This document shows, in pieces, positions 226-40,549 of a stretch of DNA of 41,738 nt. A program made the translations under genes and the position numbers. The notes below the pieces were generated by a model. It was given only the letters and a program-made list of their open reading frames with translations, had not been told where the DNA came from and made no database searches. Within the stretch, counting starts at the first letter, position 1. Each line of letters begins with the position of its first letter. The DNA comes from Anaerolineae bacterium (GTDB lineage: Bacteria > Chloroflexota > Anaerolineae > 4572-78 > J111). The stretch lies in the NCBI GenBank assembly GCA_016931895.1, contig JAFGDY010000163.1, positions 1 to 41,738 of the forward strand, given 5' to 3'.

Positions 226-2526
226 TTACGGGTTATTCTCCACGCCAACAATCAACTCGTCCTCGGCCAGCCGTTCCCCAGCCGGGCCAAAGGTGGGCAG
301 TCGTTGGCCGGTGGCGGCATCATACAAACCCAGGGCAATGTGGTCAACCTGGGCATAATCAGCGGGCGGTAAAGGGTGAATGTCTTGCACAATCTCGCCG
401 GGCTGCCATTGGCTGGTGGGGTAATGTCCACTGACCGGCGGGCCATCAGCTTGGCTGCGCACAAAGCCGTCGGCAGCGCGCAGGTGAACAAAAATGGTGT
501 AATCGGTGGCGGGTGATGCGGCGGATTGCCAGTAGAGGATGAGGCGAGAAGAGGAGTGTGAATTGTGAATTGTGAATTGTGAATTGTGAATTTCTAACGG
601 TTTGGACATAAACTGTGTGGGAGTTGCGGGTAAATCTACTGTAATTTTGAGGAGGCGAATGGTTTGGTTGGGGCCGAAGGTGGCCAGGGGAGGAGGGGTG
701 AATCGGTGCGGGTCATTGGGCAAGACATGGTAGAGATAATCGCCCGCAAATTGGCCGAGGGGATAGAGGGCAGGGTTACACTCGGCGCGCCAGCGGTCGG
801 TGGTTTCCCATTGAGCGCGATCCAGGGGAGCTTCGCCGGGATGAACGAGGAGGAACAATTGTGAATTGTGAATTGTGAATTGTGAGTTATGAATGAGGGA
901 CCGTAGGGCCTTGATTGACTGTTCATCAGGGAAGTTGGCCAGGGCCTGGGCCAGTTGGGGCTGGCGGGGCGGGGTGTAGCCGGAGTAGCCGTTGACCAAT
1001 CGCCACCAGCCCAGGGTGCTGGCGTAGAGGCGTTTGACCTCTGGATATTCCGGGGCCGGGGCGCTGTGCAACGGCAGTTCAACCAGGGCAAAGTTATTAT
1101 CGGGTTGAGCGGCCAGCCAGGCGTAGACCGGGTTCAGGGTGTCTCGATTTTCTACCGGGGCCAGGGGAAGGGGGATGGAGAGGGTTTCGGTGAGCAGAAG
1201 CAAGACACAGAGAGGGAATAAGAGATTAGAGATTAGAGATAACGATTTGCGATTTGCGATTTGAAATTTTAAGTTTGCAAAGCCAAAGGCAGCCAGAGCG
1301 GCGAGGGCAAACAGGGCCGGAATGATCCAGCGAGAAGGAACCCGGACGATGGTGCTGGGGGGGGAAAGGGTGGCGAGGACAGCATACGGAGTAGGGAAGA
1401 CCAGGGCCACGGAAAAAATCAGGATGAAGAGTAAGGCGTAAAACCTGGCCCTTGATGCCTGCCACCTGACCCTTGACCCTTGGTAGGTTAAAGCTACGAG
1501 GGCCAATATTGGCGCGATAATGCCCACAAACAACACATGCTCTTCGGTGAAGCCGGGCCGGCTGCGGAAAGTTTCGGTGAGAGGGCCAAAGATACGATTG
1601 AAGGGTGCGGCCGCGGCAAAGTCGGTGGGGGCGGCGGCCAGGGAAAGGGCCAGGGAAAGCGGGCGAGCGGCGCGCAATTCATCAACGATGGCAAGGTAAG
1701 GGAGGATGAAGGGCAGGATGAGCAGGGTAACAAGTAGCAGGGTAGCAAGTAGTAAAGTAAGAGGTGGCAAGGTAGCAGGAGGGGATGGCTTGAAGTAGCG
1801 GGCCAAGAGGACGGCGAACAGGTAGAGAACAAAGATTAGAGCGGTGTAGAGGGCCAGGTACCAGGAGGCGAGAATTTGGAGCAGTAAGAACAGAGTTAGG
1901 GCCAGGCAGAGAAGCAAAGGGACAGGCAGGGAGGGGAGGGAAGTTTTTTGAGATTGGCGGGTTCTTCTGAGTAACAAATCAAGAAATAACAGGGCAAAGG
2001 GCAACCATTGAAACGTGAGTAACTGCAAATGAGCAATGGCGGCAAAACGATAGGGGTTGAAGGCAAAAATCAAACAGGCAAGAAAGGCCGCATCACGCCG
2101 GCCCGTCCAGCGGAGGGCCAGCAAGTACATCCCAAACGCAGATAGGGGAAAGGTGAGCAACAAACTTAGATTATATGCCAGGATTGGCTCGCCGGAGATA
2201 AGTTGCAGCGGCAGGGACAGCAAGGCGGTGCTAAAAAGATGCTCGGAGTAGGCCAGCGTATTGGCCAGGGGATGAAAAATATTGGCATTGAACAGGTTGA
2301 GCGGGTCGGTGAGCAGGGCGTGGCTATCCCAGGCCAAAATCCAGGTATTGAGCAGGGGGTCGCCGATGTCGTTGGGCACGACAATGGTCAAATTGAAGAT
2401 GAGGGGGTAAGTCAGGATCAGGGTGAGCAGGATGTAGACGAAAAAAACAAAAAAACTATGTCTCAGAAGTGAGGTCAGCAAACTCATTCTCGGCAATCTA
2501 CAATCAATGGTCTGCGCTTGTTTCAT
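226..2526 (-). CDS. large polytopic GT-C-like glycosyltransferase/membrane protein
   Basis: A 766-residue integral membrane protein with about a dozen hydrophobic segments in residues 20-450, then a soluble C-terminal part. The first external loop has NDIGDPLLN (residues 52-60), an acidic motif of the kind used by GT-C glycosyltransferases that draw on lipid-linked sugars; no exact family is claimed. The last ~100 residues form a beta-rich module (YTIFVHL, YPTSQW, LGLYD, TGQRLP) also found at the ends of the next two genes. Its ATG overlaps the upstream gene's stop as ATGA (2523-2526), so translation is probably coupled. A second possible start is Met14. Four heptamer-repeat arrays lie inside the gene and encode linker-like stretches such as IHNSQFTIHNSQ. 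Membrane location is clear; substrate is unknown. Confidence 0.85.
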   Translation of the reverse strand: MKQAQTIDCRLPRMSLLTSLLRHSFFVFFVYILLTLILTYPLIFNLTIVVPNDIGDPLLNTWILAWDSHALLTDPLNLFNANIFHPLANTLAYSEHLFSTALLSLPLQLISGEPILAYNLSLLLTFPLSAFGMYLLALRWTGRRDAAFLACLIFAFNPYRFAAIAHLQLLTFQWLPFALLFLDLLLRRTRQSQKTSLPSLPVPLLLCLALTLFLLLQILASWYLALYTALIFVLYLFAVLLARYFKPSPPATLPPLTLLLATLLLVTLLILPFILPYLAIVDELRAARPLSLALSLAAAPTDFAAAAPFNRIFGPLTETFRSRPGFTEEHVLFVGIIAPILALVALTYQGSRVRWQASRARFYALLFILIFSVALVFPTPYAVLATLSPPSTIVRVPSRWIIPALFALAALAAFGFANLKFQIANRKSLSLISNLLFPLCVLLLLTETLSIPLPLAPVENRDTLNPVYAWLAAQPDNNFALVELPLHSAPAPEYPEVKRLYASTLGWWRLVNGYSGYTPPRQPQLAQALANFPDEQSIKALRSLIHNSQFTIHNSQLFLLVHPGEAPLDRAQWETTDRWRAECNPALYPLGQFAGDYLYHVLPNDPHRFTPPPLATFGPNQTIRLLKITVDLPATPTQFMSKPLEIHNSQFTIHNSHSSSRLILYWQSAASPATDYTIFVHLRAADGFVRSQADGPPVSGHYPTSQWQPGEIVQDIHPLPPADYAQVDHIALGLYDAATGQRLPTFGPAGERLAEDELIVGVENNP
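558..592. repeat. heptamer array A, GTGAATT x5
   Basis: Five perfect tandem copies of GTGAATT inside the 226-2526 gene. Because 7 is not a multiple of 3, the array is read through all three frames and encodes a 7-residue peptide period (NSQFTIH). Gain or loss of one unit would shift the frame. Confidence 0.95.
861..895. repeat. heptamer array B, GTGAATT variants
   Basis: Three perfect GTGAATT units followed by GTGAGTT and ATGAATG, in the same orientation as array A about 300 bp away and inside the same gene. It encodes an IHNSQFTIHNSQ stretch between more conserved parts of the protein. Confidence 0.9.
1221..1276. repeat. heptamer array C, AGAGATT/GCGATTT words
   Basis: Eight consecutive heptamers in one register: AGAGATT twice, AGAGATA, ACGATTT, GCGATTT twice, GAAATTT, TAAGTTT. 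The word changes midway but the 7-bp phase does not. It lies within the 226-2526 gene at a loop between hydrophobic segments. Confidence 0.85.
1443..1484. repeat. heptamer array D, CCTTGAC/ACCTGAC words
   Basis: Six in-phase units (ACCTGGC, CCTTGAT, GCCTGCC, ACCTGAC, CCTTGAC, CCTTGGT) within the 226-2526 gene. The words resemble those of array I at 8283-8331. Confidence 0.75.
1724..1779. repeat. heptamer array E, AGGGTAA/CAAGTAG words
   Basis: Eight in-phase degenerate units beginning AGGGTAA, CAAGTAG, CAGGGTA, GCAAGTA. It lies within the 226-2526 gene, where it encodes a leucine-rich hydrophobic stretch. Related words recur in array K at 37971-38033. Confidence 0.7.
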
Positions 2527-5432
2527 GGCGCTACCGAGATAATGAAACTATTATTGGGCAACGGTTTGCCGGCAGCGTCGGCGGCGGGCAGGCGTTCGCC
2601 GGTGGTGGGATGGTAAAGGCCAACGGCGATGGCGTGGAGTGAGTCCGGCGAGGCCAGGCGGGAACCGATAGGGCGCGCATCGGTGATGATTTGTTGAGGC
2701 AACCAGTCAGAAAGAGAATACAGGCCATCGTAGGGGACACCGTCGGCCTGGACTAATAAGTTGCCCTCGGCATCAAGCAGGTGAATGAAAATGGTGTCGT
2801 TTTGCTCAAGAAACTGATCAGTTTGCCAATACAACACCAGGGTGTCGCCCTGGACATGAACCTGCCGGAGCGTGACGTGCGGGCCAAAGTGAGCCAAAGG
2901 CGTAGCAGGCAATTGGGGAGGCGGCGCGACCAACCACACTGAACCAAGTTTAAAGTTTGTAGCGCCATCCGGCCAGATTGACAGCCGCTCGTCAGTTTCA
3001 CGATTGTAGAGTCCCACGTGAACATCATAGCGAATGGGAGGCAAGTCTGTTGGCACTTTGAGCGAAAGGGGGTTGCGCAAATATAAACCGGGCGGCCAAT
3101 TATAGGTGGGAATATCTTCGGGGGTATCTTCGTCAACTGCGGCAAAGGTTTGTTGGTTTGGCGCGTCGAGATGAAGAAAAACTGAGTAACTTGTGTTCAA
3201 ATCGGCCAAAGCGCGCCAGTAAAGCGTAACCGTCAGCAATTCGCCGGGGGAGATGGTTTCCGGTAAATCGTCAAAGCCGACCAGCCGGATTTGGTTGGCA
3301 AAATCAACCCGCACCACGTGGTCGGCGGGTTGGGGCCGGTCGGGGTCTGATTGCAAAGTAAACAGGGGAGCCAGAGGACGCGAAAGCAGGTAAAGGGCAA
3401 AAAACGACACCGCTGCTATCACAAAGAATCTGGGAGAGATGGCCGTTGCATGGGGGTCGCCAATCCCTGTTCCACTATCTCGTCGTCCACCTGTCTCATT
3501 GATATATTGCTTAAAGAAAAAAACAGCAATCAGGCCCAAGACAAACAGCGAGCTTACGGTCAGCCCCAGCCCGATGGCGCGCAAAGGGGTTGATTCCAAT
3601 TGCAGGGTCAGGCTGTGCCGGCCGGCGGGAATAGTTGTTTGAATCAAGCCGGTATTTGGGGTCACGGTAAAAGCAACGGGTTGGCCATCCAGGTAAACCT
3701 GCCAGCCGGGCCAGTAAAGGGTGCGGATGGTAGCCACAAACTTTTCAGGCGTATTAATTTGCCAGGAATCGGACTCGGCCTGGTGGCTCAGAGTTTCCAC
3801 GTTTGCGCCGGGCGGCAGAGAGGCCGGATCAATTTTTTGCGGCGGCCGGCCGGCCTCGTAATCGGGGCGAAGAGTTTTGGGGGAGGGGTGCTGCCGGGCG
3901 CGGCGAGGCAAAAATTCGCCGGTGCTGGTGGTGCCAATGGCGTAGGAGGCTGCTTCGTAGGCAAAAGCCTCCGCCGGAGAGGGCGTGCCCCAAGAAATGA
4001 ATTGGGAGGGGAAGAGATAGTAAACGTTGAAGGTAATAACCATAAGGATAGACAGAAAAAGGATGAGGTCCAAATTGCGATTGGCAATTTGCAATTTGAC
4101 AATCCAGAAAGCAGCCGCAGCCAAAACGCCGGCGCAAAAAATTGCCGGGCCGAGCATGCGCCAGGGGAACTCGGCCAGTTCGATGAAGGGCACAGATTCC
4201 CATAGGAACTGGGATTGGGGCAGGGCCAGGAAGACGTAGAGTAAAAAGAAAATGGTGAAGAAAAGGGTGTGACCGATACGTGATTGGATCATGTCACTGC
4301 GAGCGATAGCGAAGCAGTCTCCCCTTTCGAAGTTGGAGATTGCTTCGGCCTGCGGCCTCGCAATGACGCCTGAACGTGTGTGTTCGGCTTCATTCTCGAC
4401 GCCATCCCGCGAGGACGGTCTGACTGCCTTGAAGACCAGGAAAAGCAGGGCCACCATTCCTAACACCGCGCCCATGATTTGAGGCAGGCCGAGGCTGAAG
4501 GGAAAGGCGGGATTGATGGTGGTCAGGTCAAGGGGCAACGGCGGGGAGAGCAGTTCTGAGAGGGGTATAAAATTTTCCCGAAAATCAAAAAAACCCTGGG
4601 TGATGCCTTCCAACTTAATCTCGTGCCGTTCGCCAAAAGCCGGCAGCCAAAAAATGGCGGCCAAACCCAGGCCAAGAAGCCCGGCGGCAATGGTGCGGAT
4701 GAGCAAAGGCATAAACCAAAATGCCTGTTGACCCGTTGGCTCGCCCCCTCGTCTCCTCGACTGCCAGGCTGTCAGCATCAGCAAAAAAAGTGAATAGGCC
4801 ACGAAGAGGGGGGCAAAGAGCATAAAGCTGATGTTGTGGCTCAATAACAAACCGGCCAGCGACACTGCCGCCGCCAGCCAATAACGGGGCCGGCCGGTGG
4901 TAATGAGGCCGTGAAAGGCCCAGAAGATAAGGGGGTAAAAAGCCAGGCCGGTAAATTGGCCGTAGTTGCCTTGAATATAAGCCTCACGCAAACGGTAAGG
5001 GGCATAAACATACACGGCTGCCGCGAGCAGCGCCGGGGCAGGCCCATAAAGGCGGCGGGCAAAAAGAAATATACCCAAGCTATACAGCAGAAAATCAAAA
5101 ATGATAACCGCCTTCATGGACTCGTCGAGGGGCAGGCCGGAAAGATGAAAAATTTGGGTTAGTTGATAGAGGGCCGGCGGAGCGTAGCTAAAAATGGGCA
5201 TGCCGTGTCCAAAAGCCAAATCGGCGCCCCAACGAGGGTAGAAGTGGCCCTGCTGCCAGGCCTGGTTCAGTTGGACCTGCCGCATCAGGTGCACCGGGCC
5301 ATCGGCGGTGTTGGGCAGGCCGGCATGAATGAGCAGGGGCATCACCGCGAAAAATGGCAGGAGTAACGCCAAGAGCAAACCATAGTCCCAAATCACGATT
5401 TTCAATTTAAGATTTACGATTTGTGATTTCAT
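2523..5432 (-). CDS. large GT-C-like membrane protein (6-pyruvoyl-tetrahydropterin-synthase-related type)
   Basis: A 969-residue polytopic protein. Its N-terminal half resembles bacterial membrane proteins named for the 'PTPS-related' domain: TADGPVHL near residue 45, then YPRWGADLAFGHGMPIF and APYRLREA motifs between hydrophobic segments. It probably transfers or flips sugar units at the membrane; no substrate can be read. The C-terminal ~270 residues hold two copies of the beta-rich module (VFLHLD..VGLYN and IFIHLLD..VGLYHPTTGERLP). It is paralogous to the next gene (5445-8321), 12 bp upstream of it, and its stop overlaps the next start by 4 bp. No Shine-Dalgarno is seen. The ATG forms the end of a heptamer array, so the first ~11 codons are repeat-derived. 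Residues ~352-380 come from a palindromic element and are probably not ancestral. Confidence 0.85.
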   Translation of the reverse strand: MKSQIVNLKLKIVIWDYGLLLALLLPFFAVMPLLIHAGLPNTADGPVHLMRQVQLNQAWQQGHFYPRWGADLAFGHGMPIFSYAPPALYQLTQIFHLSGLPLDESMKAVIIFDFLLYSLGIFLFARRLYGPAPALLAAAVYVYAPYRLREAYIQGNYGQFTGLAFYPLIFWAFHGLITTGRPRYWLAAAVSLAGLLLSHNISFMLFAPLFVAYSLFLLMLTAWQSRRRGGEPTGQQAFWFMPLLIRTIAAGLLGLGLAAIFWLPAFGERHEIKLEGITQGFFDFRENFIPLSELLSPPLPLDLTTINPAFPFSLGLPQIMGAVLGMVALLFLVFKAVRPSSRDGVENEAEHTRSGVIARPQAEAISNFERGDCFAIARSDMIQSRIGHTLFFTIFFLLYVFLALPQSQFLWESVPFIELAEFPWRMLGPAIFCAGVLAAAAFWIVKLQIANRNLDLILFLSILMVITFNVYYLFPSQFISWGTPSPAEAFAYEAASYAIGTTSTGEFLPRRARQHPSPKTLRPDYEAGRPPQKIDPASLPPGANVETLSHQAESDSWQINTPEKFVATIRTLYWPGWQVYLDGQPVAFTVTPNTGLIQTTIPAGRHSLTLQLESTPLRAIGLGLTVSSLFVLGLIAVFFFKQYINETGGRRDSGTGIGDPHATAISPRFFVIAAVSFFALYLLSRPLAPLFTLQSDPDRPQPADHVVRVDFANQIRLVGFDDLPETISPGELLTVTLYWRALADLNTSYSVFLHLDAPNQQTFAAVDEDTPEDIPTYNWPPGLYLRNPLSLKVPTDLPPIRYDVHVGLYNRETDERLSIWPDGATNFKLGSVWLVAPPPQLPATPLAHFGPHVTLRQVHVQGDTLVLYWQTDQFLEQNDTIFIHLLDAEGNLLVQADGVPYDGLYSLSDWLPQQIITDARPIGSRLASPDSLHAIAVGLYHPTTGERLPAADAAGKPLPNNSFIISVAP
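4072..4106. repeat. heptamer array F, AATTTGC words
   Basis: In-phase units AAATTGC, GATTGGC, AATTTGC, AATTTGA, CAATCCA inside the 2523-5432 gene, encoding a VKLQIANRNLD stretch. This peptide closely resembles the one made by array C (KFQIANRKS). Confidence 0.8.
4293..4377. repeat. palindromic element E1 inside a coding sequence
   Basis: An 85-bp imperfect palindrome with outer arms GTCACTGCGAG and CTCGCAATGAC and inner GAAGCAGTCTCC / GGAGATTGCTTC. It is a member of the family also seen at 15558-15706, 29082-29205 and 32366-32471. It is read through without a stop in the 2523-5432 gene, giving residues around 352-380 (VIARPQAEAI ... GDCFAIA). This is comparable in style to palindromic elements inserted in frame in Rickettsia proteins; no sequence relation is claimed. 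Confidence 0.85.
5391..5432. repeat. heptamer array G ending at a start codon
   Basis: Six in-phase units AATCACG, ATTTTCA, ATTTAAG, ATTTACG, ATTTGTG, ATTTCAT. The last three bases are the reverse-strand ATG of the 2523-5432 gene, so the array supplies the start codon and the first residues (MKSQIVNLKLKIVI). Confidence 0.85.
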
Positions 5433-5444
5433 AAGTCAGCCAAT

Positions 5445-8321
5445 TTACCGCTCGCCAACCGTCACGGTCGTTAATTCCACAAAGTCAAGCCCGCCGGTTG
5501 TGGTCAAACGCGCCAGCGTCAGCGGGTCGTACAGACCCACCACCAGCAAATACTCACCGGGCGCAACCTCGTTCAGCGGGATGGAGCGGGGGTCCAGGAT
5601 GGTTTGGTCCGGCAGCCAAGTTGACGTGGGGTAAGCGCCGTCCAGGGGAGGGCGGTCAAAACCGGCCACCAGATTTTGATCCAGATCAAACAATTGGGCA
5701 AAAACCGTGTAATCTTTTTGGGGCGTTTGGTCACTTTGCCAGGCCAGGGTAAAATCAAGCCGCGTCTCAGTTTGGGCCTCAAGTTGAAAGCCGGTCAGAT
5801 AAATAGTATCACTATCATTGCTAAAAATCACATCCAGTTGTTCAGCCAACGGCGTTATCTGGCCTGGCGCCGGTTTGACCCTGATAATGGTCAACTGCGC
5901 CGTATCACCGCTACCATCGGCCAGAGGCAGCAGGCGATCCCGGTCGGGGTCAATCAAGCCCACCCGCACAGCGTAGGCCAGGGGCGGGAGGTCCGGCGGC
6001 AATATCAAATCGTGTTCATCGCGCACGTAACGGGCCGTGTCCCAATGAAAGGTGGGCAGCACGCTCTCCGTGGTGGCGTCGCCGGGGGTGTAATTGGTGG
6101 CGTCGGCGACGGTGGTCCAATCGTTCAGGCGGTCTAAATGCACAAAGGGCTGCAAATTGGCCTTGATGGGCGCGGTATCGGTTGCCCAATACAGCACTAC
6201 CTGCAACCGCCCGCCCGGAGAGACAATAGGCTTATCCAGGTCATACCCGATCAGACGAAGGCCATCGGCAAAACGGATGTCGGCTTTATGGCCCGCCGGG
6301 AGCGCCTGGCCGGGCGGCGATTGAATTGTGAAGACGGAGCGTAATAGGGGTTTGAGCCAAAAAGCACCAATTACGGCCAAAGCCATCGCCAGTAGAATGA
6401 TCAGGATTTTTTGGCGAGGGGCAGGAGAGCGCGCTTTTTTATCTTGTTTTTCGACGCGACGTCTACGGCTGACTTGCCAAGATAGGCCGGCTACCAGCAA
6501 ACTCACCATCGCCAGGCCACTCCAGAGCATGGCCGTCACTCGAACCGGCGTCTCGCCAAAACGGACGGTCAAGGTGTGCTGGCCTGCCGGAAGGTCAATC
6601 AGCATCAAGCCGGTGCCGGGTTCAGGCGTGATGTTGACCGGTCGGTCATTTATCCAGGCTTGCCAGCCGGGATAATAAAAATGAAAAAATCGTAGGGTAA
6701 AGTCTTTTGGGCCGTTAAGCCGGTAGATGTGCGTGATGGCATTTTGTTTGAGCAAGATGGCCTTTGTGCCGGCGGGCAAGCTGGCGTAATCCAACCGTCG
6801 GGGATTTTGACCGGCCAGAAACGCCTCCAGCAGGGGCGAAGTGGTGGGGGCCTGGCTTACCGTTTGGGGCAGGTATTCGCTCACCGTGGTCGTCCCTACC
6901 GATTGGGAACGGCGCTCATAATCAACCTGATCGGCCAGGGTGGGCTGGCCGTATTGGGCAAAGGGGATCACGGGGTATAACAAGGGCGCCACCGCCACAA
7001 TTTGGATGGCCACGCACACGGCTACCCCCAAACGCCGGACTTGGGACGGCAGCAAGAGCAGCGCCGCGCCGGCCAAAAAAGCCAGGCCCAAATTGGCCAG
7101 GCTCAATAACCGCCAGGGGAATTCGGCTACCTGCAAAATGGTAAGGGTTTCCCAAACCGGGCGAGAGAGAGGGAGGGTCAGGAAAATGCCGGCAGCCGCA
7201 ACCAGGGCAAAAAACAGGATAAAACAGACGGGGGAAGCGCCTGGGGCAATGGCCCGTTTTTTGATGAGTAACCATAATCCCGTTAATAGTCCAAAGAGCG
7301 CCAAAATCAAAGTGACCACGCCCAGAGTCAAAGGGACGTAAGGGTTGGCCGCGCGGGCGTCCAGGGGGTAAATCCAGGCGACCAGTTCAGACCAATGCGG
7401 GTAGCGCACGTAAAAAGGGCTTTTTTCCAGGTAGATATTGGCCTGGGCGCGCGTGTAAAATCGCTCGGTAAAAGCGGGCAGCCAAAAGAAGGCGGAGAGG
7501 AGCAGACCCAAGGGAATGGACACCAGAGGCAGTAGGCCAACAATGAGCCGATAGGGTTTAGCAGAAAAATGAGAATTTAGAAATGAAAAATGAGAAACTT
7601 TTGAGGCCTGGCTTGCCCCTGACGGAGTTCGGACTGAAAGCCAAAATAGCATTAATCCATAAAGGCCCACGACAGGCGTAAACACCAGCACCTGGTACAA
7701 GTGACTCAACATTACCCCGGCGTAAAAAATGGCCGCCAGGATCAGCCAGCCCCAAAAATAAGTTCGGGCCGAGCGAGTCATGGCCCATAACGTCCAGGGG
7801 AACAGACCAATGGCCAAAAATTGAGGCACGTTGCCGCCGTAAAGCAGCGCCTCGCGCAAGGCAAAGGGCGCAAACGCATAGGCTACGGCGGCCACCAACC
7901 CGGCTTCAAGGCTGCCTAAAACATCGCGCGCCAGCAGATACATGCCAGTTGCGTAAAGTAAAATTGTGAGGATAATCAGAATCTTGAGCGCAGTCTCTAA
8001 GGTAAAGCCGGCGCCATAAAAAACCAGGGCCAGGAGATGTGGCAAGGGCGGGGTAAACACAAACAGTGGATACCCATAGCCAAACGCCAGATTGGGCGCC
8101 CAACGCGGCACAAGCACTCCCGGCGCCCAGGCTTGTTTGTATTCCAACGTGCGGTAAAGATGAATAGGCATGTCGGCCGCCGCAGGCAGGCCCGGCTGCC
8201 ACAGGCTTTGGATGATGAGTAGAGTCAGTAGAGCGGCAATGATTAGCCCAACGTCCATTCTATTGATAAAATGTGAAGCGTAACCCTTGACCTTTGCCAC
8301 TTGACACCTGACATTTAACAT
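5445..8321 (-). CDS. large GT-C-like membrane protein, paralogue of the downstream gene
   Basis: A 958-residue polytopic protein with the same plan as the 2523-5432 product: AADMPIHLYR near residue 50, VPRWAPNLAFGYGYPLF, APFALREAL, about a dozen hydrophobic segments, then two copies of the C-terminal beta-rich module (FVHLDRLN..VGLIDP and VFAQLFD..VGLYDP). It probably acts on lipid-linked sugars or polymers at the cytoplasmic membrane. The ATG at 8321 lies inside heptamer array I and has only a weak AGGG upstream. Met22 (8258), just before the first membrane segment, is the alternative and would exclude the repeat-derived peptide. Array H makes residues ~241-252 (SHFSFLNSHFS). It is first of a three-gene reverse-strand operon and only 20-40 bp from the divergent GT2 gene. 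Confidence 0.85.
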   Translation of the reverse strand: MLNVRCQVAKVKGYASHFINRMDVGLIIAALLTLLIIQSLWQPGLPAAADMPIHLYRTLEYKQAWAPGVLVPRWAPNLAFGYGYPLFVFTPPLPHLLALVFYGAGFTLETALKILIILTILLYATGMYLLARDVLGSLEAGLVAAVAYAFAPFALREALLYGGNVPQFLAIGLFPWTLWAMTRSARTYFWGWLILAAIFYAGVMLSHLYQVLVFTPVVGLYGLMLFWLSVRTPSGASQASKVSHFSFLNSHFSAKPYRLIVGLLPLVSIPLGLLLSAFFWLPAFTERFYTRAQANIYLEKSPFYVRYPHWSELVAWIYPLDARAANPYVPLTLGVVTLILALFGLLTGLWLLIKKRAIAPGASPVCFILFFALVAAAGIFLTLPLSRPVWETLTILQVAEFPWRLLSLANLGLAFLAGAALLLLPSQVRRLGVAVCVAIQIVAVAPLLYPVIPFAQYGQPTLADQVDYERRSQSVGTTTVSEYLPQTVSQAPTTSPLLEAFLAGQNPRRLDYASLPAGTKAILLKQNAITHIYRLNGPKDFTLRFFHFYYPGWQAWINDRPVNITPEPGTGLMLIDLPAGQHTLTVRFGETPVRVTAMLWSGLAMVSLLVAGLSWQVSRRRRVEKQDKKARSPAPRQKILIILLAMALAVIGAFWLKPLLRSVFTIQSPPGQALPAGHKADIRFADGLRLIGYDLDKPIVSPGGRLQVVLYWATDTAPIKANLQPFVHLDRLNDWTTVADATNYTPGDATTESVLPTFHWDTARYVRDEHDLILPPDLPPLAYAVRVGLIDPDRDRLLPLADGSGDTAQLTIIRVKPAPGQITPLAEQLDVIFSNDSDTIYLTGFQLEAQTETRLDFTLAWQSDQTPQKDYTVFAQLFDLDQNLVAGFDRPPLDGAYPTSTWLPDQTILDPRSIPLNEVAPGEYLLVVGLYDPLTLARLTTTGGLDFVELTTVTVGER
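7565..7599. repeat. heptamer array H, AAAAATG/AGAATTT words
   Basis: Five in-phase units AAAAATG, AGAATTT, AGAAATG, AAAAATG, AGAAACT inside the 5445-8321 gene, encoding a serine/phenylalanine linker between two hydrophobic segments. Confidence 0.8.
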
Positions 8322-8331
8322 TTGACCCTAA
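8283..8331. repeat. heptamer array I at a divergent gene boundary
   Basis: Seven in-phase units ACCCTTG, ACCTTTG, CCACTTG, ACACCTG, ACATTTA, ACATTTG, ACCCTAA. It contains the ATG (8321) of the reverse-strand membrane protein and fills most of the space to the forward GT2 gene, so it may also hold promoter elements (it includes TTGACC at 8322-8327). Confidence 0.85.
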
Positions 8332-33629: not shown

Positions 33630-35204
33630 ATGAACACACCACAATTTGATTACGATTATATCATCATTGGCAGTGGGTTTGGCGGCTCGGTGGCGGCGTT
33701 GCGGTTAGCGGAAAAGGGCTACCGGGTGCTGGTCATGGAAAAGGGCAAATGGCTGGCCGGAAAAGATTTTCCCCAAACCAACTGGAATCTCAAAAAGTGG
33801 CTGTGGCTGCCCACGCTCAGATTCTTTGGGCTGTTCAAGATTACGTTTTTCCGGCACATTACGGTTTTATCGGGCGTAGGCGTTGGCGGCGGCTCGCTGG
33901 TTTACGCCAATACCCTGGCTACGCCCAAACCGGAATTTTTTCAGGCGGATAGCTGGGCGCATCTGGCGGATTGGGCGGCAGAACTCAAAGAGTTTTATCG
34001 CACAGCGCTGACCATGCTGGGCGCCACCCCCAATGCTTACCTGGCCGTCGGCGATAAAGCTTTGCAGCAACTGGCCCAACAGATAGGCCGGGAAAACGAC
34101 TTTGCCGTCACCACGGTAGGCATTTACTTTGGCCAGCCGGGCCTTACCGCCCCGGACCCCTATTTCAACGGCGCCGGGCCGGACCGAACCGGCTGTAATT
34201 TCTGCGGCGGCTGTATGCTGGGGTGTCGTTATGAGGCCAAAAATACCCTGGATAAAAACTATCTGCACCTGGCTCAACAAAAAGGGGCCAAAATTCAGGC
34301 CGAGACAGAAGTGTACGACGTGATTCCACGGGGGCCAAATGGAACGCAGGGTTATACCATCAAATGCAAATCAGCCACCACGCTTTTGAAAACAAGGGGG
34401 ACCTACACCTGCCGGGGAGTGGTGTTGGCCGCGGGCGTGCTGGGCACGGTAAAACTGCTTTTGGATTTGAAACAATCTTCGTTGCCCAATCTCTCAAACA
34501 AAGTGGGCGCTGGGGTGCGGACCAATTCGGAAAGCCTAATGGGGGTGACGGCTTTGGACAAAGACACGGTTTTTTCCGAAGGTATCGCCATCGGCTCAAT
34601 TCTGCATACCGACACAAATAGCCATTTAGAGCCGGTGCGCTATCCGGCCGGTTCAGGCTTTTGGCGGCTGCTGCAAGCGCCGCTGGCCCACGGGCCCAAT
34701 GTAGTGGTCCGGTTGGCCAAAATAGCGGCCGATTTTATCGCTCATCCCGGCCAAAATCTAAAGGTTATTTTTGTGGACGACTGGGCCAAACGGACGCAAA
34801 TCCTCATGTTTATGCAAACACTCGACAGCCGGCTCTCTTTTTCCAGGGGATTGGGAGGGATGAAAACAACCGTGGAAAAGGGGGAACAGCCCACGGCCTT
34901 CATCCCGGAAGCCAAAATATTGGTCGAGCAGTACGCCCGGTTGGTCCGGGGCAAGCCGATAGCCTTGTTAACGGAAACGCTATTGGGCATCCCGACCACG
35001 GCCCATATTTTGGGAGGCTGTGTGATGGGGCAAACCCCCGCTGAGGGTGTGATTGACAAAAATAACCGGGTCTTCGGTTATAAAAATATGTTTGTGTGTG
35101 ACGGTTCAATGATCTCGGCCAACCCCGGCGTAAACCCCGCCCTGACCATTATGGCCCTCACCGAACGAGCGATGAGCAAGATACCGGGGAAGGACGACGA
35201 ATGA
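33630..35204 (+). CDS. GMC-family FAD oxidoreductase, cholesterol-oxidase-like
   Basis: A 524-residue flavoenzyme. FAD-binding IIIGSGFGGSVAALRLAEKG lies at residues 11-30; SGVGVGGGSLVYAN is the second flavin loop; the middle has a cysteine-rich CNFCGGCMLGCRYEAKN; the end has TAHILGGCVMG and CDGSMISANPGVNPALTI, containing the His and Asn positions of cholesterol-oxidase-type GMC enzymes. It probably oxidises a sterol-like or other hydrophobic alcohol; the substrate is not certain. No signal peptide. Predicted leaderless from the 33593-33621 promoter. The C-terminal codons (GKDDE-stop) lie in heptamer array J, so the very end is repeat-derived. Confidence 0.92.
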   Translation: MNTPQFDYDYIIIGSGFGGSVAALRLAEKGYRVLVMEKGKWLAGKDFPQTNWNLKKWLWLPTLRFFGLFKITFFRHITVLSGVGVGGGSLVYANTLATPKPEFFQADSWAHLADWAAELKEFYRTALTMLGATPNAYLAVGDKALQQLAQQIGRENDFAVTTVGIYFGQPGLTAPDPYFNGAGPDRTGCNFCGGCMLGCRYEAKNTLDKNYLHLAQQKGAKIQAETEVYDVIPRGPNGTQGYTIKCKSATTLLKTRGTYTCRGVVLAAGVLGTVKLLLDLKQSSLPNLSNKVGAGVRTNSESLMGVTALDKDTVFSEGIAIGSILHTDTNSHLEPVRYPAGSGFWRLLQAPLAHGPNVVVRLAKIAADFIAHPGQNLKVIFVDDWAKRTQILMFMQTLDSRLSFSRGLGGMKTTVEKGEQPTAFIPEAKILVEQYARLVRGKPIALLTETLLGIPTTAHILGGCVMGQTPAEGVIDKNNRVFGYKNMFVCDGSMISANPGVNPALTIMALTERAMSKIPGKDDE

Positions 35205-35280
35205 CGAATAACGAACGAGGAATGACGGACAACAACTTTGGTCGTTGGTCCTTCGTCGTTGGTCGGTTTGGTCGTTACTC
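35190..35280. repeat. heptamer array J with fold-back halves
   Basis: Thirteen in-phase heptamers (AAGGACG, ACGAATG, ACGAATA, ACGAACG, AGGAATG, ACGGACA, ACAACTT, TGGTCGT, TGGTCCT, TCGTCGT, TGGTCGG, TTTGGTC, GTTACTC). The first half is ACGA-type and the second is its complement type (TCGT), so the array can fold on itself. It covers the GMC stop codon and the gap before the zinc-ribbon gene. Confidence 0.85.
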
Positions 35281-37970: not shown

Positions 37971-38033
37971 TCAAGGTAGCAGGGTAACAGAGTGGCAGGG
38001 TAACTGCCTTTCTACCTTGCAACCTTATTACTT
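37971..38033. repeat. heptamer array K with fold-back halves
   Basis: Nine in-phase units TCAAGGT, AGCAGGG, TAACAGA, GTGGCAG, GGTAACT, GCCTTTC, TACCTTG, CAACCTT, ATTACTT. The left AAGGTAGCAGGGTAAC and right TACCTTGCAACCTT halves are partly complementary and can pair. It overlaps the miaA stop codon. Confidence 0.8.
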
Positions 38034-40480: not shown

Positions 40481-40520
40481 AATGATTTTTCTCCTTTCAA
40501 ATTAGCGACCGGCCCTTCGA

Positions 40521-40541
40521 ATGACGAAGGACAAATGACGA
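40521..40541. repeat. heptamer array L, ATGACGA words
   Basis: Three units ATGACGA, AGGACAA, ATGACGA, the same word family as the first half of array J, in the gap upstream of the carboxypeptidase gene. Confidence 0.7.
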
Positions 40542-40549
40542 AAATTGCT

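Follow-up and report, generated by a model that had tools for sequence, protein, structure and literature searches.

Background

The dominance of heptanucleotides among the long tandem repeats of bacteria is a puzzle that dates back to 2007 or earlier. The closest described systems are the dispersed heptameric repeats of Xanthomonas, GGGAATC/(GGGANTN)n, and of Nostoc, GGGGA(T/C)T (Rehm et al. 2015, PMC4692102). These repeats are heterogeneous, with fixed and variable positions, and are found as inverted pairs (70-75 per genome) lying 28 nt from the stop of the 5' gene compared to 160 nt from the next gene. Their length and sequence differ between close species, their words form a single G-rich family able to fold into quadruplexes, and 7-11 % of the arrays are intragenic (PMC4692102). 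TAACTGA heptamers have been described in Beggiatoaceae, Cyanobacteria and Bacteroidetes (MacGregor 2015, PMC4679880); they show indels in 7-nt increments and are mixed with other heptads in Microcystis. Within Chloroflexota, (GATAGRA)n satellites are known in Chloroflexus aurantiacus (Subirana and Messeguer 2019, PMC6749651). Two further cases are the degenerate heptanucleotide repeats which the tRNA-Leu intron of Nostoc carries in its P6b stem (Costa et al. 2002, as used in PMC3488679) and the heptanucleotide repeats that control HMW1A in Haemophilus influenzae and are associated with phase variation (PMC8262952). Earlier work has thus already described heptads as the commonest class of long simple sequence repeats (SSR), heterogeneous units, arrays in inverted pairs or located past stop codons, words that differ from species to species, and indels of 7 nt (PMC4692102, PMC4679880, PMC6749651, PMC3488679).

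Sequences and methods

The stretch of DNA analyzed here, called the window, is the entire contig C163 (41,738 nt) of a 6.06-Mb, 320-contig genome, 97 % complete (G000, hereafter the own genome). The host is an Anaerolineae (Chloroflexota) MAG and not a heterocystous cyanobacterium, the group for which the earlier note on this DNA had mentioned heptanucleotide repeats. Tandem structure was scored by ungapped self-alignment at lag p (match +1, mismatch -1) with a cut-off score of at least 10 per segment, and TRF was also run on the window. Order-3 Markov copies (n=60) and local triplet shuffles of the window were used as controls. Periods were counted at the genome scale on stretches chosen blind to repeats, which amounted to 853 kb for the own genome and 460 kb for G310, a member of the same family; G301 belongs to the same genus. 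Gene calls are mechanical ORFs. Array residues were masked before the alignment used to compare array sites, and word sharing is the share of 7-mers matched within one mismatch.

Excess of period 7 in the window and in the genome

Ten lag-7 segments reached the cut-off in the window (approximately 557-592, 857-892, 1218-1276, 1458-1482, 4077-4098, 5398-5429, 7564-7597, 8283-8326, 35189-35265 and 40518-40542), compared to a mean of 0.6 in the Markov copies (maximum 3) and 0.2 in the triplet shuffles (maximum 2). The twelve arrays listed in the earlier note are real, ten of them exceeding a score met only 0.2-0.6 times in shuffled windows. The other two places are less strict: 1721-1752 is a 15-bp (7+8) array and 37971 a degenerate inverted pair. 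Nine of the twelve lie, as had been stated, in three genes at 226-8321, and the other three are intergenic. In the first 8.3 kb, lags 7, 14 and 21 gave 8, 7 and 6 segments respectively, and every other lag from 4 to 20 gave 0-2. The "strict" 7-bp register that had been claimed holds statistically, but not at every junction, since a GATT motif steps by 6 once in 1221-1276.

The same tendency was observed at the genome scale, where the earlier note had placed its own test. Period 7 was the best period for 21 arrays in the 853 kb of the own genome and for 23 in the 460 kb of G310, compared to 0-7 arrays for each of the periods 5, 6, 8, 9 and 10. Two exceptions to period 7 were met on contig C150 of the own genome, a period-8 array (also 16 and 24; L048:4822-4950) and a period-6 array (also 12, 18 and 24; L048:774). 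The locus of glycosyltransferase (GT)-like genes is a hotspot. In G310, G309, G306 and G304 it holds between 42 and 63 arrays of period 7 per 100 kb, compared to 5 in random stretches of G310, and for the whole window the figures are 12 vs 2.5. The description of this locus as rich in arrays is thus confirmed, its density being far above that of random stretches.

The word (GTGAATT)3 occurs 32 times in the own genome, counting overlaps, which corresponds to about 13 exact arrays, and the reversed word is absent. In a 301-genome sample of the phylum, (GTGAATT)3 was found in the own genome only; it is present in 7 of 11 other family members and in 2 members of the order, control genomes of other orders being searched by pattern only. 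Heptad arrays are a trait of the family, and their density is highest in a single operon of polytopic GT-like genes.

Arrays in the GT-like genes

The three genes and their nine arrays are on the minus strand. o1 (226-2526) is an ORF for a GT-like polytopic membrane protein of 766 aa with five arrays; its orthologues are 47-66 % identical, with intact frames. o2 (2523-5432) encodes a polytopic membrane protein of 969 aa with two arrays, and o3 (5445-8321), a paralogue of o2 with about 30 % identity to o2-type genes, a protein of 958 aa with two arrays. Pfam gave weak matches for o2 (PTPS_related, 1e-6; PMT_2, 1.3e-5) and no match for o1 or o3. The hosts are, by these weak matches, putative GT-like proteins, with a presumed role in surface structures. 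In random stretches also, genic arrays are mostly in PMT_2-type, other glycosyltransferase or polytopic proteins.

Two arrays of o1 are made of AATTCAC. The first (557-592; 5.1 copies on the coding strand, TRF score 72, lag-7 score 29) encodes IHNSQFTIHNSH; its site carries the identical word in the same-genus genome and other words in three further genomes. The second (857-892; about 5 copies, lag-7 score 25) encodes IHNSQFTIHNSQ, and the same-genus orthologue has VPNSELY instead. The third array (1218-1276; lag-7 score 28) passes from AATCTCT to AAATCGC and then to AAATTTC and encodes LKFQIANRKSLSLISNLLF; at this alignment site five relatives have arrays, mostly of other words. The last two are an array of CAAGGGT/CAGGTGG words (1458-1482; lag-7 score 12), which encodes QGSRVRWQA, and the 15-bp array at 1721-1752, AGCAGGGTAACAAGT in + strand letters (TRF period 15, score 57).

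In o2, CAAATTG heptads at 4076-4098 (lag-7 score 11) encode VKLQIANR at a site which carries arrays in four relatives, and mixed NNNATTT heptads (+ strand) give MKSQIVNLKLKI at the N-terminus (5398-5429; lag-7 score 13). In o3, AAATGAG heptads (+ strand) at 7564-7597 (lag-7 score 13) are read as SHFSFLNSHFS, the site being occupied by two-armed arrays of other words in G306 and G310. The N-terminal array of o3 (8283-8326; lag-7 score 17), MLNVRCQVAKVKG, is composed of CAGGTGT/CAAGTGG words and has a similar array in the same-genus genome (L211 1477-1505).

Variation of units and replacement of words

Words change inside an array while the phase is kept, as the earlier note had observed: identity goes from 0.74 to 0.41 at lags 7 to 49 compared to 0.20-0.33 off phase, the lag-7 value being inflated by array detection, which itself picks lag-7 similarity. 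Phase is kept over at least 49 bp (0.41 at lag 49 vs about 0.25 off phase). Adjacent units are 0.77 identical compared to 0.66 for permuted units, the adjacent value being higher in 64 of 69 arms; unit identity declines from 0.75 to 0.24 across 18 units, and transitions represent 53 % of unit differences. This is the signature of local 7-nt duplication followed by point mutation. Mixed in-phase words had been presented as an argument against slippage. This argument does not hold, since likeness of neighbours and decay with distance are what local duplication leaves, and in-phase drift from one word to another needs no exotic synthesis when local duplication and point mutation give the same pattern. 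Differences in copy number were also seen between species, in MAG assemblies which may collapse or misassemble repeats.

Slippage and mutation could then be the whole explanation, each array arising independently from a chance duplicate with no exchange between loci. The unit-to-unit decay and the excess of transitions agree with this, as does the polymerase-footprint proposal of Mrazek for heptads, as reported in PMC4679880 and PMC4692102. What slippage leaves unexplained, and what the earlier note had missed, is that words are common to unrelated loci and are replaced at orthologous sites.

Array sites are conserved between genera, since in the alignment 40 of 44 arrays coincide with an array from a different genome, compared to 26.3 +- 3.6 (maximum 37, n=1000) in shifted controls. 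These sites are presumably loops and termini tolerating insertion. The words at orthologous sites are replaced in other genera, so that the arrays are not identical conserved coding sequence, a possibility that the earlier note had raised against itself. In GT-locus comparisons based on seven to nine genomes, 7-mer sharing between different sites of one genome was 0.184 compared to 0.069 for unrelated arrays; at the same site it was 0.051 with another genus and 0.455 within the genus. Label permutation never reached this result (0/2000). When letters were re-ordered inside heptads, keeping composition and period, sharing dropped to 0.087 (maximum 0.113, n=200). Words are therefore genome "dialects", common to the sites of a genome beyond composition.

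Whole-genome counts give the same picture. GACSAAY x4 occurs 41 times in G000 and 42 times in G309 and is absent from G306 and G310, whereas ACGATTT x3 occurs 57 times in G306 and is absent from G000. The GT-gene arrays of G309 are made of GTCATTS, the complement of the genome-wide word of G309. One comparison gave a weaker signal: exact 7-mers of the GT arrays of the window are equally frequent (0.33) in random arrays of G000 and G310, whereas those of the GT arrays of G310 match their own genome better (0.26 vs 0.03). GACSAAY words are common in G000, G309, G307, G319 and even G144 (same class, other family). We counted 63 overlapping matches of GACSAAY x4 in G319 (same order, L344) and 45 in G144; with so many matches outside the family, this word is patchily shared over long distances.

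Purely local slippage is rather unlikely in view of these shared words, which differ at the same site in other genera, and of the roughly 13 exact (GTGAATT)3 arrays, without any reversed word, in one 6-Mb genome. Since it is insufficient, words must either pass from one locus to another or be favoured by a bias acting across the genome. Exchange between loci is suggested indirectly by the dialects, and our confidence in it is moderate to low; the dialects could also come from a genome-wide bias, in mutation or selection, towards certain words. A more specific reading, which we put forward as tentative, is that dispersed arrays evolve in concert, words being copied between unrelated loci in phase and without flanks, so that each genome would converge on a dialect of its own while sites stay fixed.

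Reading frames of the genic arrays

Translated in frame, the GT-locus arrays give repeated heptapeptides (IHNSQFT, SQIANLK, VRCQVS). In 42 GT arrays, stop triplets in any frame numbered 36 on the coding strand compared to 241 on the antisense strand, and in other genes tracts favour the stop-poor orientation 17:1. On contig C302 of the own genome (L087:7225-8412, minus strand), a single frame joins 23S_rRNA_IVP and hexapeptide transferase domains over a 177-bp heptad array (7845-8021); the array, being free of stops, may have given rise to a gene fusion.

Arrays inside putative surface genes recall the SSR-controlled surface genes of Haemophilus, and changes in copy number of a 7-nt unit could switch GT genes on and off by shifting the frame. 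The hotspot in polytopic GT-like genes, seen in the window and in random samples, would fit phase variation, as would the frame shift caused by a single unit gained or lost and the near perfection of the AATTCAC arrays. It is nevertheless an unlikely explanation: the GT-locus orthologues of relatives are mostly 47-68 % identical and all ORFs translated for alignment are stop-free, in MAG consensus sequences that hide minority variants; most arrays are short and interrupted, with several in one gene; and outside the GT locus more than half of the arrays are intergenic.

Intergenic arrays

The array at 35189-35265 is an inverted pair, with a GACGAAT-type arm followed by a TTGGTCG-type arm (purine then pyrimidine; lag-7 score 18), and folds to -34 kcal/mol (z -1.6). 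It ends a GMC-oxidoreductase-like gene (33630-35204), whose stop codon (35202-35204) is inside the array. Negative distances suggest the same position of the stop codon for several other tracts, and it seems that arrays provide the stop of the gene before them or take its place. At 37971-38027 we observed a degenerate inverted pair, AAGGTAGCAGGGTAAC / CTACCTTGCAACCTT in direct reading, part of which folds with a z of -3.3. The third is a short GACGAAN array (40517-40542; lag-7 score 10) with a surrounding stem of z -3.4.

Intergenic tracts in general begin a median of 7 nt past the stop of the 5' neighbour, often overlapping it, and 27 of 34 are in gaps between co-directional genes. A significant inverted partner, i.e. 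a hairpin signal, was found for 25 of 36 intergenic tracts compared to 4 of 21 genic tracts. The purine-rich arm came first in all twelve two-armed tracts with a clear purine contrast. This order and the frequency of intergenic hairpins may reflect selection and not mere tolerance.

If so, intergenic arrays could be 3'-end structures that serve to protect or process transcripts or to terminate them in both directions, with the coding arrays as by-products. The hairpin signal, the placement just past stops and mostly between co-directional genes, the constant order of arms and a similar placement in Xanthomonas (PMC4692102) are in favour of functional RNA hairpins. Yet the arms pair imperfectly and differ in words, convergent gaps hold only 1 of 34 intergenic tracts although they represent 66 of 520 gaps, and no Rfam match was found in the window; as an account of the whole system, selection for hairpins is quite unlikely.

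Other candidates

Templated synthesis, in which a telomerase-like enzyme with a short template adds heptads, would give the fixed 7-nt step and the recurring words but is highly improbable, since an external template would make units exchangeable, yet neighbours are most alike, each genome has many different words, and the own genome, which is 97 % complete, gave no RVT_1 (reverse transcriptase) match.

Loss of mismatch repair was rejected as an explanation, since every family member searched has MutS domain I, so that no repair loss marks the family. A mobile element or MITE was rejected too. Beyond the repeats, the flanks of two sets gave no cross-locus match among 98 and a single one, of 22 bp, among 64, and flanks being unrelated between loci, no larger mobile element carries the arrays. 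A universal preference for GACSAAN was not observed, 58 viral-contig stretches being found compared to 69 for the reversed pattern; 17 vs 2 for (GTGAATT)3 and its reversed word is suggestive only.

In a search of plasmids, the IHNSQFT peptide was found in three records only (Providencia, Burkholderia, Planktothrix), and a 50-nt GACSAAN query gave no match. A full-text literature search returned no paper on the encoded peptides. On the Providencia rettgeri plasmid AP025671.1, unannotated DNA at 5765-5821 (L194:1501-1557) encodes heptapeptides of the IHNSQFT type and adjoins a partition-like pair of genes (CopG-like/AAA ATPase); these repeats are possibly centromere iterons using the same heptad by coincidence.

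Proposed mechanism

We consider it probable that imperfect heptanucleotide tandem repeats have spread within the genomes of a single Anaerolineae family as follows, the 7-nt step being taken as given. A locus would first gain a short stretch of a word already common in the genome by ectopic copying from another array, i.e. template switching or short-patch conversion. Replication slippage would then duplicate or delete units at the locus itself, a 7-nt step being too long to be repaired efficiently as a mismatch, and units would diversify by point mutation. Selection would retain arrays where they are harmless: in gaps just past stops, and in loops and termini of large membrane glycosyltransferases. 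Genic arrays would be kept only in the stop-poor orientation; since 7 is not a multiple of 3, a heptad without stops leaves all three frames open. The intergenic inverted pairs could come from fold-back copying or from selection for RNA hairpins. In this mechanism we regard the arrays as mostly tolerated, not selected for a function.

Comparison with known systems

The Anaerolineae arrays offer a natural experiment on heptads, the same in-frame orthologous sites carrying arrays of different dialects across several genera. They separate the step length, which is conserved, from the word, which is replaced, and make the preference for seven bases easier to test; local duplication shapes them, and local slippage is not enough. 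For annotation, they are a warning that peptides such as IHNSQFT, SQIANLK and VRCQVS can be the read-through of DNA repeats and not protein motifs.

With the heptanucleotide class of long SSR (class of Mrazek 2007, type of Rehm et al.), the arrays share the genome-wide excess of period 7, dispersal at many loci, genome-specific words, heterogeneous units and inverted pairs near the stop of the 5' neighbour. Unlike in the repeats of Rehm et al., many word families coexist and the arrays are concentrated in coding frames of GT-like genes. They do not belong to the G-quadruplex subtype, the main words of the own genome (AATTCAC, AACGACC, ACCTGCT) not being G-rich. Like TAACTGA, they repeat a heptad particular to the genome at many loci, with a patchy distribution among distant taxa; TAACTGA is mostly just upstream of start codons in its main organism, whereas the arrays described here are past stops and inside genes. 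The Chloroflexus aurantiacus satellites are likewise scattered heptamer arrays in Chloroflexota, and the GATAGAA words of G310 are similar to them; C. aurantiacus has a single heptamer, unlike the many words found here in another class of the phylum. As in the Nostoc P6b stem, degenerate heptads on both arms pair into a hairpin of variable copy number; P6b is one intron locus, whereas the Anaerolineae arrays are genome-wide. HMW1A concerns one adhesin gene, compared to a genome-wide, multi-word and in-frame system here. As far as we have searched, what is new is the presence of many word families in one genome, in-frame arrays at conserved orthologous sites, and the replacement of dialects at these sites.
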